The notes below the pieces were generated by a model. The model was not told where the DNA came from. It did no database searches and was given only the letters and a program-made list of their open reading frames with translations. A stretch of DNA of 36,263 bases, taken from contig NZ_JAKGCV010000014.1 in NCBI RefSeq assembly GCF_021556455.1, forward strand, positions 1 to 36,263. The letters run 5' to 3'. Shown here one piece after another: positions 5,282-17,036 of the stretch. Each line of letters begins with the position of its first letter. The first letter of the stretch is position 1. The stretch is from Streptomyces fuscigenes. GTDB lineage: Bacteria; Actinomycetota; Actinomycetes; Streptomycetales; Streptomycetaceae. The position numbers and the translations under genes were made by a program.

Positions 5282-5460
5282 AGCGGTTGCTCAGGTGGAT
5301 GGGAGGGTAGTCCCCGCGGGTCCGGGCGGCGAAACCGGAGAGGCGGCCGGGGCGGAGTGAGATGGCACACGCGGCCCGGAGGGCGGGAGCCTGCCGGCTT
5401 CACGCTGCGCGACCCGGCTGCGGGGCCGCGACCGGCTCGGCGCGGAGCGGGGGCGGCGGG

Positions 5461-5504
5461 ACCGGCCCGTACAGGAGGGTGTACCGGCCCGTACAGGAGG
5501 GTGT
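5461..5504. repeat. 22-bp direct repeat, 2 copies
   Basis: Two exact adjacent copies (5461-5482, 5483-5504), each beginning ACCGGCCCGTACAGG. They lie in the 385-bp gap between the thiolase and SGNH genes. Each contains GTAC, but no convincing operator symmetry. Besides this repeat, the -10 box and the hairpin at 5538, I see nothing in the gap. Confidence 0.85.
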
Positions 5505-5537
5505 CAGGGAGCCGGGACCGGGACCCCCCGGGCCGGG

Positions 5538-5573
5538 CGCGCCACGGCCGGGCCCGGAGGCGGCCGTGGCGCG
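5538..5573 (-). terminator. 13-bp stem-loop terminator after the SGNH gene
   Basis: Arms 5538-5550 and 5561-5573 (CGCGCCACGGCCG and its complement) with a 10-base loop, about 38 nt beyond the stop of the minus-strand SGNH hydrolase gene. Confidence 0.7.
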
Positions 5574-5610
5574 GGCGCCGCGCGGGCCTTGCGCGAGGGG
5601 TGGACGGCCG

Positions 5611-6612
5611 TCACGAGTCCTGGTGGGCCTCTCGGGGTGCCGGCTCCTGCTGGGTGATCGGGTGGCGCCTGCGGCGGTGCTTCAGCAGTGCCCAGGGGGC
5701 GCGCGCCCCCGTGACCTCGGTGCCGCCGCGCGCTGCCGCCTCGGACGCCGCCTTGGCGACCGGCAGCATGTTCTCGTCGCGCGTGACGTCCAGCCGGTCC
5801 GTCTCCGGCCACAGGCCCAGTGCCGCGCAGAGCGTGGGCAGCACGGCCATGGCCGCCGTCGCGTACCCGTCGACGGACGGGTGGTAGTGGTCCGGCCCGA
5901 ACATCTCGCTCGGGTGCGCCTCGAACTCGGGGCCCAGCAGGTCTCCCAGCGACACCGTGCGGCCGCCCTGCTCCACCGTGACGATCGTCTGCGCCGCCGC
6001 CAGCTGGCGGCTCGTGCGCCGGGCCAGCCAGCGCAGCGGCTGGTAGACGGGCTCGACGGTGCCGAGATCCGGGCAGGTCGCGACCACCACCTCCGCCCCC
6101 GCGGTGCGCAGCCGCCGGACCGCGGCCGACAGGTAGCGAACGGACTGGGTGGGCGCCATCCGGTGCGTCACGTCGTTCGCGCCGATCATGACCACGCAGA
6201 TGTCCGGCAGCCGGGACGGGTCGGACAGCATGAGGGAGACCTGGCGCTCCAGGTCGTTGGACCGGGCTCCGGGCAGGGCCACGTTCACGAGATCCACGGG
6301 CCGCTCGGCCACCGCCGCGAGCCCCGACGCCAGCAGGGCCCCCGGCGTCTGGCCGACCCGCCGCACCCCCTGGCCCGCCGCCAGCGAATCACCCATCACG
6401 CCCAGCCGCAGTGCGTCCGCCCGGCCGTACGCGAGGCCGTACCAGCCGTTCCCGTTCGCCGGGACCGGGGCGTCCGGAATGCCCACCCGCCGCTTCGCCA
6501 GCTGGACCTCGGCCAGCAGCACCCCCATCCCCGCCGCGCCGATCAGACCGATGCCGCCGCCCCCGAAAGCCGCGCCCGTCGCGATGCGTCTGGCCACCCT
6601 CGCTCTCGACAC
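5611..6612 (-). CDS. SGNH/GDSL family esterase or lipase, membrane-associated
   Basis: 333 residues. A Gly/Ala-rich hydrophobic stretch (about residues 12-35) follows a basic start and could be a membrane anchor or uncleaved signal. The SGNH blocks follow in order: GDSLAAGQG with nucleophile Ser76, Gly in the ALPGARSND region, GANDVTHR with Asn146, and DHYHPSVDGY with the Asp241/His244 pair. It should hydrolyse an ester of unknown substrate. GTG 6612 was chosen because GAGGAGG lies 11 nt upstream and a likely promoter sits just before it. The in-frame ATG at 6654 has no binding site and overlaps that promoter. The Arg/His-rich C-terminal tail is probably disordered. Confidence 0.88.
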   Translation of the reverse strand: MSRARVARRIATGAAFGGGGIGLIGAAGMGVLLAEVQLAKRRVGIPDAPVPANGNGWYGLAYGRADALRLGVMGDSLAAGQGVRRVGQTPGALLASGLAAVAERPVDLVNVALPGARSNDLERQVSLMLSDPSRLPDICVVMIGANDVTHRMAPTQSVRYLSAAVRRLRTAGAEVVVATCPDLGTVEPVYQPLRWLARRTSRQLAAAQTIVTVEQGGRTVSLGDLLGPEFEAHPSEMFGPDHYHPSVDGYATAAMAVLPTLCAALGLWPETDRLDVTRDENMLPVAKAASEAAARGGTEVTGARAPWALLKHRRRRHPITQQEPAPREAHQDS

Positions 6613-13175: not shown

Positions 13176-13224
13176 CGACCCGGCCGGTCCGGTCGGCCGG
13201 TGCGGGACGGTCGGAGACCCCGAA

Positions 13225-13296
13225 GCGCCGGACGGACGGAAGAACCGAGCGCCGGACGGACGGAAGAACCGAGCGCCGGACGGACGGAAGGGCCGA
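13225..13296. repeat. 24-bp tandem repeat, 3 copies
   Basis: Three adjacent 24-bp units at 13225, 13249 and 13273, each starting GCGCCGGACGGACGGAAG. The first two are identical; the third ends GGCCGA in place of AACCGA. It lies between convergent genes ending at 13175 and 13420. Confidence 0.9.
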
Positions 13297-13307
13297 GCGT
13301 CGGACCG

Positions 13308-13379
13308 CCGGGCGGAGGTCCGGACCGTGTACCGAGCGGTCCGCCGGGCGGAGGCCGGGACCCTGTACCGAGCGGTCCG
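13308..13379. repeat. 36-bp tandem repeat, 2 copies
   Basis: Two 36-bp units (13308-13343, 13344-13379) starting CCGGGCGGAGG and ending TGTACCGAGCGGTCCG, differing at a few bases. It follows directly on the 24-bp array, so the whole gap is repeat-derived. Confidence 0.85.
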
Positions 13380-13419
13380 CCGGCGGTCGGCCGTACCGGC
13401 CACCGGCGGAACGGCCGGG

Positions 13420-13794
13420 TCAGACCTCCAGATCGTTCTCGATCCGGTTGAGCTGATGGCGGGCCATCGCCAGGTTCGCGCGGCTCTTGTCCAGGGCGAG
13501 GTAGAGGAACAGCCCGTTCTTCCCGCGCCCCTTCAGCAGCCGGATCAGGTGGTACTGGCTGCCCAGCGTGATCAGGATGTCCTCGATCTCGTCCTTGAGA
13601 CCGAGCAGTTCCATCGTGCGGACCTTGGCTCTGACGACGTCCGTATTGCCGGCGGCGGCGACGGTCAGGTCGAAGTCCTTGCCGCCTCCGATCGTGCCGA
13701 GCGCCATTCCGCTGGTGTAGTCCACCAGGGCCGCGCCGATCGAGCCGTCGATGGAGGTGGTGGCTTCCTTGAGCGAAGCTTCGGTGTTGGCCAT
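13420..13794 (-). CDS. roadblock/LC7-like protein C
   Basis: 124 residues with the alternating pattern of a roadblock fold: GAALVDYTSGMALGTIGG, helix AAAGNTDVVRAKVRTMELL, then DILITLGSQYHLIRLL, then GLFLYLALDKSRANLAMAR. Such small proteins act as dimeric scaffolds or regulators of small GTPases (MglB type) and occur in Streptomyces conservons. It is a clear paralogue of the protein at 15418-15966. ATG 13794 is the start most like related proteins. The frame also opens at ATG 13890, 3 nt after the upstream gene's stop, which would add 32 basic, Ser/Thr-rich residues by translational coupling; I cannot decide between them. Last gene of the operon. Confidence 0.8.
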   Translation of the reverse strand: MANTEASLKEATTSIDGSIGAALVDYTSGMALGTIGGGKDFDLTVAAAGNTDVVRAKVRTMELLGLKDEIEDILITLGSQYHLIRLLKGRGKNGLFLYLALDKSRANLAMARHQLNRIENDLEV

Positions 13795-13893
13795 GGGTGT
13801 CGCATGTCCTTTGTTTCTGGCGGCCGCCTTGGTGGTCCTGCGGCCACGGGATGGTGAGGATGTGGGGGGCTTGGCGGAAGCTGAGGTCATCGG

Positions 13894-14286
13894 TCAGGCG
13901 TTCTCCAATCGGTCGAGGGCGCCGTCCACCAGTTCGCCGATCCGCGCGCTCGACCTGCGGGCCTCCAGATGGAGGCGGCCCACGTTCGTACGCGGTTCGG
14001 CCATCAGAGTCAGCACTGCCGACGCGCCTGCCGCGTACGTCGCGACGTAGCCGCGCTCACCCCGTACGAGGAGTTCGCGGAAGCCGCCCTGCCCCGTCGT
14101 GTCGGTGAGCCGCTGGGCCACGCCGAGCGCGGCGGCGGTCAGCGCGGCCACGCCCTCGGCCTCGTTGCCCGCGGTCTCCTGGGCGAGCACGAGCCCGTCG
14201 ATGCTCGCCGCCAGTGCGCCCGTCACCTGGGGAAGGCAGGCCCGCAGGCGCCGCAGCTCGCCGAGCACGTCGGCCTCTGCCGTCAT
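13894..14286 (-). CDS. roadblock/LC7 domain protein B
   Basis: 130 residues and the most typical roadblock protein of the three: VTGALAASIDGLVLAQE, then the helix AEGVAALTAAALGVAQRL, then FRELLVRGERGYVATYAAG and SAVLTLMAE, then a C-terminal helix LHLEARRSSARIGELVD. ATG 14286 has AAAGGAGA 7 nt upstream. It is cytoplasmic and presumably a dimer or heterodimer with its neighbours. It lies 82 nt after the DUF4388-like gene on the same strand. No small GTPase, DUF742 protein or histidine kinase is adjacent, unlike a conservon. Confidence 0.88.
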   Translation of the reverse strand: MTAEADVLGELRRLRACLPQVTGALAASIDGLVLAQETAGNEAEGVAALTAAALGVAQRLTDTTGQGGFRELLVRGERGYVATYAAGASAVLTLMAEPRTNVGRLHLEARRSSARIGELVDGALDRLENA

Positions 14287-14368
14287 CAGCTGTCTCCTTT
14301 CGGCGCGTTGCCGCAATGTGCGCCTCATGACGGAGTGGTCAGAGCGTGTCCGGTGGGGGAGCAGGGCA

Positions 14369-15421
14369 TCACAGGGTTGCCTCCAGGGCGTCGCGCAGCC
14401 TGCGCAGCAGGGCGATGTCGGGGTCGTCGGAGAGCGTGGCGACCCAGGAGGGCACGGCCCCGGTGGACTCCGGCGGAGCGAGCGGTTCCTTCGGGGTGTC
14501 CACGAGTCCGGCCGCGGCGAGGCGGCGGATGTCCAGGAGGATGTGGAACGCGGGGCGGCCGAGCGCCCACGCGATCGCCGCCGGAGTCCTGGTGCCGTCC
14601 GCGAGGGCGAGCACGTCACGCTGTCTGCGCGGCACGAGCTGGCCGGGGGCGGGCTCGCGGGCCACGACGGGCGCGGTGTCCGCGCTCGCATACGGCCAGA
14701 CGCTGTCGAGGAGTTCGCGCCGGCGGAGCGTCTCGCGCTCGACGGCCGCCGCCGAGACGGGCCGGACGGCCCCGAACCAGTGGGCCACTCCGTAGCGGAA
14801 GCGCGTCGGGCCGCTGCCGGGGGCGAGCGCGAAGAACGCGGCGTCGAACATCGCGCCCAGGTGGCATATCTCCAGCTCCCCGCCGCCGACCCGGCCGCTG
14901 TCCACCAGGAAGCGGGCGACCTCCCGGCGCGCCCCCGCCTTGTCGACGGCCTCCTGCCAGCCCGTGCGCGGCAGCCGCCCGCCGGCGGTGAGCAGCACGT
15001 CCACGCCGGGTGCGGACGGACTCTCCGCGTGCACGATCCGGCCCTCGGAGAGGTAGAGGGTCCCGTGGTCCCGCAGCAGGGCCCCGGTGGCGCGCTCCTC
15101 GGCGAGGCGCGTCAGCATCGGCGACACGGAGCGGGCGGGCAGATGGTGCGACGCCCCCGGCGTCCGGTGCTGCGTCCGCCCCGGCACGTCGTGCTCCGCG
15201 TGTTCCGGGTGCTCCGGCAGTTCCGGGGCCTCGTGACCCCGGAGGTCGGGCGACCCGTGGTCCGGCCTGCCCCCGGCCTCGTGCTCCCCCGGCGCGGGGC
15301 CCGGTGCTCCGGGGCCGGCCGGTGTCGGAGCCGTCCCGGCGGTCCTGTGGAGTGCGGCCGCGTGAAGTGCGGTCGCGTGAAGTTCGGCCGCGTGGAGTTC
15401 GGCCGCGTCGCGTGCGGTCAT
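14369..15421 (-). CDS. DUF4388-like protein with His-rich N terminus
   Basis: 350 residues. Residues 1-100 are low-complexity, rich in Ala-Glu-Leu-His and Pro-Glu-His repeats, and probably disordered. Residues 102-165 (LTRLAEERATGALLRDHGTL, then GRIVHAES) resemble DUF4388/PATAN domains, which occur with two-component and GTPase signalling. A stretch near 260-310 (ADGTRTPAAIAWALGRPAFH, then RLAAAGLV) looks like a winged helix, so DNA or protein binding is possible. ATG 15421 overlaps the upstream stop as ATGA, indicating coupled translation. The domain calls are by eye and moderate. Confidence 0.75.
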   Translation of the reverse strand: MTARDAAELHAAELHATALHAAALHRTAGTAPTPAGPGAPGPAPGEHEAGGRPDHGSPDLRGHEAPELPEHPEHAEHDVPGRTQHRTPGASHHLPARSVSPMLTRLAEERATGALLRDHGTLYLSEGRIVHAESPSAPGVDVLLTAGGRLPRTGWQEAVDKAGARREVARFLVDSGRVGGGELEICHLGAMFDAAFFALAPGSGPTRFRYGVAHWFGAVRPVSAAAVERETLRRRELLDSVWPYASADTAPVVAREPAPGQLVPRRQRDVLALADGTRTPAAIAWALGRPAFHILLDIRRLAAAGLVDTPKEPLAPPESTGAVPSWVATLSDDPDIALLRRLRDALEATL

Positions 15422-15966
15422 CCGAGCACCAGCCGTTCTGCCAACTGCCGCATGCGTATGCGCGCCAGTGCGAGATTGCCCGTGTCCCGGTCGAGCCAGA
15501 GGTGCAGGAACACGCTGCTGTCGAACGTCGTCTCCACGAAGCACAGCAGGTGGTACCCGGTGCGGGTGGAGACGATCACGTCCTCCACGGGTAAACCTTT
15601 CTCCGCGGCGCCCTCGCTGCCCCCGTTTCCGTCCCCGTCGCCCCCGCCCTGCACGCTGCCCCCGGTCCGGCCGGCCGTTGCGGAAGTGGCGGACTGCACG
15701 GGGGAGCCGGAGGCGGGAAGAGGTCCGGAGGTTGGAGGAGGCGGGAAAGCGGAAGATGCGCCGGAGGAGCCGCCCGGAGCGAAGGTCGTGTACTCGGCGG
15801 CTGCACGCGCCAGCTCCGCGGTCTCCGCGGCGGTGGCCTCAGGATCCCCGCCGGGCGACTCGCCCACCGCGCCGAGGGCCAGCCCGCTCGTCCAGTCGAC
15901 GACCGACGCTCCGCGCGCTCCCGGCAGGGCCATGGCCTCTTCCAGGCATGCGTCGATTCCGGGCAC
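15418..15966 (-). CDS. roadblock-like protein A with long linker insert
   Basis: 182 residues, first gene of the operon. The halves match protein C: GASVVDWTSGLALGAVG at the start and VEDVIVSTRTGYHLL, then LWLDRDTGNLALAR at the end. Between them, residues about 63-124 are a Gly/Ser/Pro-rich insert absent from protein C. GTG 15966 was chosen for the GGGAGGGAG just upstream; the in-frame ATG at 16002 lacks a site. It ends in an ATGA overlap with the DUF4388-like gene. Confidence 0.78.
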   Translation of the reverse strand: MPGIDACLEEAMALPGARGASVVDWTSGLALGAVGESPGGDPEATAAETAELARAAAEYTTFAPGGSSGASSAFPPPPTSGPLPASGSPVQSATSATAGRTGGSVQGGGDGDGNGGSEGAAEKGLPVEDVIVSTRTGYHLLCFVETTFDSSVFLHLWLDRDTGNLALARIRMRQLAERLVLG

Positions 15967-16615: not shown

Positions 16616-16664
16616 TGCCGGATGCCGGATGCCGGATGCCGGATGCCGGATGCCGGATGCCGGA
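16616..16664. repeat. 7-bp tandem repeat, 7 copies (TGCCGGA)
   Basis: Seven exact copies of TGCCGGA, followed by a diverged copy. Perfect identity suggests recent expansion or slippage. Confidence 0.95.
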
Positions 16665-16762
16665 CGCCTCCCGCTTGACGGCTGACGCCTGCCCCATGCG
16701 TTCGGTCCTGCCTGCCGCCCGCTACCCGCCGCGTGCCGTTACGCACTACCCCTCGTCTGCGG

Positions 16763-16797
16763 ACGCCAGACGCCAGACGCCAGACGCCAGACGTCAG
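16763..16797. repeat. 7-bp tandem repeat, 5 copies (ACGCCAG)
   Basis: Four exact copies of ACGCCAG and a fifth with one change (ACGTCAG), then decayed copies to about 16830. Read in phase, GCCAGAC differs from the GCCGGAT of the array 100 bp away by two transitions. Confidence 0.9.
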
Positions 16798-16860
16798 ACG
16801 CCACGCGCCAGAGGCCAGAGGCTGGACGTCGTACGCCGGACGTCGGCCTCCCCGCTCGGC

Positions 16861-16964
16861 GGCCCCCTTCGGCCCCCCGGCCCCCTTCGGCCCCCCGGCC
16901 CCCTTCGGCCCCCGGCCCCCTTCGGCCCCCGGCCCCCTTCGGCCCCCGGCCCCCTTCGGCCCCC
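16861..16964. repeat. 17-18-bp C-rich tandem repeat, 6 copies
   Basis: Six units of GGCCCCCTTCGGCCCCC, the first two with one extra C. On the minus strand, which is the coding strand of the gene ending at 17037, this gives runs of 5-6 G separated by CC or CCGAA, placed 73-176 nt past the stop. G-quadruplex or hairpin formation is plausible, and it may work as a terminator. Confidence 0.9.
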
Positions 16965-17036
16965 GGGCCCCGGCCCCCGGGCCCCCCGGTCCTTCCGGCC
17001 CCCCCCGGTCCGCCGCCCGCCGCCCGCCGCCCGCGG

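Follow-up and report, generated by a model that had tools for sequence, protein, structure and literature searches.

Small GTPases are the partners with which roadblock proteins are understood to act; what, then, do roadblock proteins do where a set of them is kept with no GTPase gene at its side? The question is raised by a stretch of Streptomyces fuscigenes DNA of 36,263 bases (hereafter the window, about 72% GC and Streptomyces-like), in which four genes, A, D, B and C, lie on the minus strand at 13420-15966. An earlier note on this DNA had read them as an operon of three roadblock-like proteins and one DUF4388-like protein, two of the genes overlapping at an ATGA; the open reading frames of the window confirmed the four genes and their positions, and the overlap is that of the stop of A with the start of D. 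A-D-B-C is a real, conserved and unstudied unit, in which an orphan roadblock protein has a fixed set of partners in the tractable genus Streptomyces. Its features are as follows.

15418..15966, minus strand: gene A, GTG start, 182 residues; roadblock-like protein, predicted divergent paralogue of C; carries a low-complexity insertion that varies
15418..15421, minus strand: ATGA, overlap of the A stop and the D start, read in the sequence and compared among relatives
14369..15421, minus strand: gene D, 350 residues; low-complexity N-terminus, predicted PATAN/DUF4388 domain and CvnC-like winged helix
14792..15121, minus strand: PATAN/DUF4388-like part of D, about core residues 4-113, limits from the D model
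14492..14698, minus strand: predicted winged-helix part of D, core residues 145-213, from VIA-align and from hhalign to CvnC
13894..14328, minus strand: gene B, predicted MglB-like roadblock protein; start at 14328 (144 residues) or 14286 (130 residues)
13807..13812, minus strand: AAAGGA, likely ribosome-binding site of C, read in the sequence
13420..13794, minus strand: gene C, highly conserved protein of predicted roadblock fold, 124 residues; no Pfam or NCBIfam family

Conservation and distribution of the cassette

The loci compared were the 80 best hits to C among 84,980 species genomes, a sample that is not unbiased. The four genes were kept together, on the same strand and in the order A-D-B-C, in 75/80 of them, the pattern on which the operon of the earlier note depended; of the other five, L051 and L067 start at a contig end, L086 is without D, and L082 and L107 hold a solo C. 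Coupling of A to D was similarly persistent: among 77 loci the stop motif of A was ATGA in 56, GTGA in 17, CTGA in 3 and TTGA in 1, so that stop and start overlap (ATGA or GTGA) in 73/77. Mean pairwise identity was highest for C (84%), followed by A and B (63% each) and D (60%), and the identity of C, together with an order fixed in 75/80 loci, means strong selection. The cassette is therefore very improbable as a decayed, functionless remnant of a GTPase system, which is what the rapid change of A, and the absence here of a GTPase that is present in relatives elsewhere, might otherwise be taken to suggest.

The chromosomal surroundings vary, with hutU nearby in 28 neighbourhoods, that of the window included. 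A match to C was present in 54/61 genomes of the genus (51 of them with an expect value, E, ≤1e-40), 127/147 of the order, 41/197 of the class (12/90 genera) and 21/396 of the phylum (10/236 genera). Complete cassettes were also found beyond the Streptomyces family, in L167, L172, L173 and L237 (the last from Nocardia farcinica), and L229, a linear plasmid of Streptomyces, carries one too. Two loci carry divergent second homologues near the cassette on the opposite strand, of D in one (L062, 9669-10169) and of both D and B in the other (L103, 3806-4991). In Streptomyces, second copies of C that stand alone (L082, 8001-8955; L107, 8001-8937; L192, L193, L194 and L196) adjoin an ArsR-family regulator gene, a label given by Pfam for the neighbour in L192 and by similarity to that neighbour for the other five; L107 and L196 may be the same place.

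The start of C is very probably the ATG at 13794 (124 residues) rather than 13890. An ATG occupies the position aligned to 13794 in 74/80 relatives, at least one of the remaining six being a misalignment; a GAAAGGAA-like site precedes the ATG in most relatives printed, and nine listed relatives have in-frame stops somewhere within the longer match. For B the start may be 14328 (144 residues, beginning MRRTLRQRAERRQL) instead of 14286: the frame up to 14328 is open in 78/78 relatives, and a RAERRQ-like string, sought as a short list of string variants, occurs in 38/78. The Pfam domain of B is independent of either choice. Tandem repeats flank the cassette on both sides, short and dense between a decarboxylase-like gene and gene A (window 16616-17034; units of 7, 17 and 34 bases) and directly downstream of C (window 13224-13383; 24 and 36 bases).

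Three roadblock-like proteins and a PATAN-like protein

The classification of B is the simplest, its match to Robl_LC7 (E 2e-16, 59.9 bits, cut-off 23) identifying it, at the level of sequence, as an MglB-like Roadblock/LC7 protein. C, by contrast in this respect, is predicted to belong to the Roadblock/LC7 superfamily by fold, not by sequence family. None of the 26 members scanned gave a confident Pfam match; Robl_LC7 was absent at E≤1, the best family being LAMTOR5 (weak, 6 of 26 members, E 0.057), and NCBIfam yielded no family, only stray single-member matches. An AlphaFold2 model of C built from 46 A and C rows had a mean predicted local distance difference test score (pLDDT) of 90.6, a predicted template modelling score (pTM) of 0.85 and the order alpha-bb-alpha-bbb-alpha. 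With this model Foldseek recovered 76 PDB chains at E≤0.001, led by 6izw_C, the MglB of Myxococcus xanthus (E 2.5e-6, template modelling score 0.80), and each of the 50 chains displayed came from an entry for MglB, MglC, Ragulator/LAMTOR, dynein light chain or roadblock, or from a complex that contains one of these. A is a roadblock-like paralogue of C as judged by homology to C (hhalign 99.5%, E 5.8e-23, 121 columns), its own Robl_LC7 match (E 0.047) lying under the cut-off. Of the roadblock folds that the earlier note had assigned to A and C, that of C was thus recovered in a model and that of A is predicted from its homology to C.

The family of C is conserved across phyla and annotated as hypothetical; plasmids of Deinococcus and Pseudomonadota encode relatives that share 50-61% identity with the Streptomyces protein. 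Phage records gave no match to C; in IMG/VR four contigs did. C homologues on two phage-like contigs of that collection (L240, L242) accompany terminase large-subunit genes, and a third (L243) lies, by eye, in a similar setting.

D appears to combine a PATAN domain with a C-terminal winged helix that resembles CvnC/DUF742. Its DUF4388 part is recognised in relatives, at E≤0.1 in 30/35 and above the cut-off of 25 in the orthologue from L167 (29.1 bits), and this, with the Robl_LC7 match of B, the model of C and the A-C alignment, bears out the count of three roadblock-like proteins and one DUF4388-like protein. The D core model (mean pLDDT 91.0) aligned over residues 145-213 with a GATOR1-KICSTOR chain (VIA-align, Z 8.1). 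CvnC is a helix-turn-helix DUF742 protein (PMC8510531), and the resemblance of the C-terminal half of D to it is one of profile comparison, with hhalign giving 87.9% (E 3.2e-6, 95 columns) through the last helix, against 0.13% with D and 5.9% with CvnC for a control, one ArsR-family set of six rows. Pfam DUF742 itself was detected at E≤0.1 in 5/35 members (best 0.0042) and not over its cut-off. The statement of the earlier note that no DUF742 protein is present consequently holds for genes and fails for domains. Foldseek found no match to the D model at E≤0.001, and VIA-align returned common winged-helix matches only (Z up to 8.1) and a weak match to the PilB N-terminus (Z 4.4); assignment of D to a known fold was thus set aside, there being no clear solved relative for the PATAN part, a missing match that is not proof of a new fold. 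At E≤0.1 PADLOC matched none of A, D, B and C, and a defence system was set aside.

A winged helix invites the reading that D simply regulates transcription of the neighbouring genes, with the roadblock proteins serving only to stabilise or localise it and with no switch chemistry. The plasmid D is annotated ‘transcriptional regulator’ by NCBI, and an ArsR-family regulator gene adjoins the solo C copies, both in keeping with this reading; the neighbours of the cassette, however, vary among loci, which makes a local target set unlikely, and the part of PMC8510531 drawn on here does not show DNA binding for CvnC-type winged helices. We consider a plain regulator distinctly unlikely.

GTPases beside the cassette, elsewhere and in relatives

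Neither a GTPase nor a kinase gene adjoins the cassette, just as the earlier note had observed. The gene list of the window places no cvnA kinase and no cvnD GTPase in the operon, and a profile of ten MglA/CvnD-type proteins, searched against the fetched flanks (at most 8 kb, less where a contig ended), found such a GTPase in 0/80 loci; nor did a kinase cluster recur beside the cassette in the neighbourhoods compared. In one Streptomyces genome (G012; L222, 9967-14001) the cassette is preceded, on its own strand, by genes for a CvnA-like kinase (NIT, HAMP, HATPase) and a CvnB-like roadblock protein; with no GTPase seen next to them, they make up a truncated conservon.

GTPases encoded at a distance were sought with one CvnD query at E≤0.01 in seven Streptomyces genomes, yielding 57 matches. 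All except a contig-end fragment (G000:C142:8692-8868) entered a pairing script; on the roadblock side, where a match was split its second half was omitted, as were two matches that fell short of the Pfam cut-off. Of the 56 matches entered, 54 had a same-strand roadblock gene no more than 2 kb upstream, and two did not (G000:C435 and, in G012, a partial match). Three of the cassette genomes consist of one contig (G044, G015 and G005), and in these every CvnD-type match (28/28) was directly downstream of a roadblock gene. The dedicated distant GTPase suggested by the earlier note was rejected on this ground, since the CvnD-type matches are paired with roadblock genes of their own (other kinds of GTPase were not sought).

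A GTPase could still be shared. The cassette might be a conservon accessory module, B and the CvnC-like part of D binding CvnD GTPases in trans and so tuning or integrating conservon signalling. The likeness of the C-terminal half of D to CvnC would suit such a role, every cassette genome searched holds conservon-type GTPases, and CvnB9, CvnC9 and CvnD9 interact, with cross-talk between conservons proposed (PMC8510531). Yet B falls outside the conservon clade of CvnB, the 14 CvnB rows forming one group (97/92) separate from the 8 cassette B rows, and a genome with two solo C copies (G600) has no MglA/CvnD-type match at E≤1e-4. Moreover, Streptomyces without C, for example G031 and G047, have an equally ordinary set of conservons, so that co-occurrence is without power and counts neither for nor against a GTPase that works in trans. 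Outside Streptomyces, 30/31 C-bearing genomes contained an MglA/CvnD-type match. On balance an accessory module seems rather unlikely.

Some relatives of the cassette do adjoin a GTPase. Outside the Streptomycetaceae 37 stretches were compared (25 genome loci and 12 non-Streptomyces plasmid stretches), and in six of them (5/25 genome, 1/12 plasmid: L180, L181, L217, L218, L219 and L231) a GTPase and a roadblock gene lie beside C, the Pfam names of the GTPases, such as ATP_bind_1, being taken from Pfam scans; in the other 31 no GTPase was seen. L218 and L219 also carry PATAN (58.8 and 65.8 bits), in the order D, GTPase, B, C. L231, the Agarilytica plasmid pSU2, has C, a BLUF photoreceptor, a GTPase (33.1 bits, cut-off 27) and a roadblock gene; the position of this blue-light sensor (5396-6121) between C and the MglA-type GTPase suggests light input for that relative. 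The description ‘stand-alone’ in the earlier note accordingly fits the cassette and does not extend to the whole family, as other lineages have C, B and D relatives with a GTPase at their side. It is because these GTPase-bearing relatives exist that the role of a roadblock protein without a GTPase becomes experimentally testable.

Other arrangements are varied. C and PATAN (DUF4388, 61.2 bits) are joined in one open reading frame of 295 residues in L241, PATAN first, and in Deinococcus sp. QL22 a DUF4388 gene directly precedes C. B and C occur with a divergent D (L176, L178, L183), C occurs with B (L170, L171), divergent from A-D-B (L185, L186, L188) or solo. An Acinetobacter wuhouensis plasmid (L228, 551-1516) has a roadblock gene, a gene for a 321-residue protein and C in a row, with insertion sequence elements upstream; by eye, the middle protein may resemble the protein with receiver and winged helix that occurs in Group 3 MglA systems. 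Succinate dehydrogenase adjoins L168 and L174, also by eye. In trees, the C rows, GTPase-linked ones included, formed one branch separate from A (100/99), while those of B mixed short, fast rows and did not place the rows from GTPase operons in one group.

A candidate signalling unit and its known relatives

We read A-D-B-C as a single signalling unit whose translation is coupled and whose roadblock proteins control D, related to MglA/MglB/PATAN operons but with no GTPase of its own, and give this a probability of about 0.5; PATAN genes are known near some MglA and MglB genes (PMC4316618). A, B and C would assemble on D in a cytosolic complex. The PATAN-C fusion suggests that C, the most conserved, would dock on the PATAN domain of D; B, by analogy with CvnB and CvnC, would be an MglB-like dimer touching the CvnC-like part. 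A, as a fast-changing paralogue, might compete or pair with C and in this way set the amount of D held, and the winged helix of D, once released or positioned, would be the output, probably on transcription. D as output, which the earlier note had proposed, is plausible.

Confidence differs among the parts of this scheme and is a matter of judgement. That the cassette works without a GTPase of its own is close to certain, and that the four proteins form one complex is likely; that it works without any GTPase is a proposition to which we lean by a little, and an output on transcription falls slightly short of even odds. We slightly favour A and C having replaced the GTPase over a conservon GTPase driving the switch in trans. 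A broader version, in which C represents an unnamed, bacteria-wide roadblock family of adapters for PATAN proteins and A-D-B-C is GTPase-free with A in the place of the switch, is doubtful. For the C family, the findings would supply a fold and, in PATAN, a probable partner.

Several observations weigh against the signalling unit as drawn. The D of the window scores only 13.5-14.1 bits against DUF4388, below the cut-off of 25, and the complete Nocardia farcinica cassette has no DUF4388 match at E≤0.05. Between C and B hhalign gave 0.1%, so that no sequence kinship was seen and their relationship is drawn from the fold, the sequence signal lacking. The fusion is a single contig of a metagenome set. 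In L181 the frame of the GTPase has a TAG before the P-loop, with no common start between, and this copy may be broken. Deep nodes of the trees are weak and some rows long, so that the trees do not separate loss of the GTPase from its later gain elsewhere. To these is added that all cassette genomes searched hold conservon GTPases, which may act in trans.

No description of the A-D-B-C cassette or of the C family was found in searches of the open-access literature. Each of its parts nonetheless has known counterparts. The PATAN response regulators PatA and PixE have a PATAN domain, as is predicted for D. They carry a REC domain, whereas D carries the predicted CvnC-like winged helix. Conservons (cvnABCD) have in common with the cassette a roadblock protein and a CvnC/DUF742-like domain, from which the cassette departs in lacking the CvnA kinase and the CvnD GTPase, in a B outside the CvnB clade, in two extra roadblock proteins and in the fusion of the CvnC-like domain to PATAN. 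In a 2014 survey 328/749 MglB homologues were orphan, none of them characterised at the time (PMC4316618), and among them a small actinobacterial clade was exclusively so (Wuichet and Sogaard-Andersen 2014, PMC4316618). Like B, its members are roadblock genes of MglB type that stand without MglA and have no conservon genes at their flanks, although the passages of the survey drawn on describe no partners like A, C and D (PMC4316618). Several roadblock proteins per system are also found in Myxococcus xanthus, where MglC, a roadblock paralogue, binds MglB in a ratio of 2:4 through an interface distinct from that of MglA (PMC7949163); that system has MglA, its complex as given in the portion of the report drawn on includes no PATAN-winged-helix partner, and its sequences share only the fold with those of the cassette (PMC7949163). 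Group 3 MglA systems of beta- and gamma-proteobacteria likewise unite one or two MglB homologues with a protein ending in a winged helix, for which transcriptional action was proposed, but have MglA, and a receiver-like N-terminus in place of PATAN (PMC4316618). Set beside these systems, the cassette unites known parts in a new combination: three roadblock proteins, a CvnC-like domain joined to PATAN in one protein, and no GTPase.

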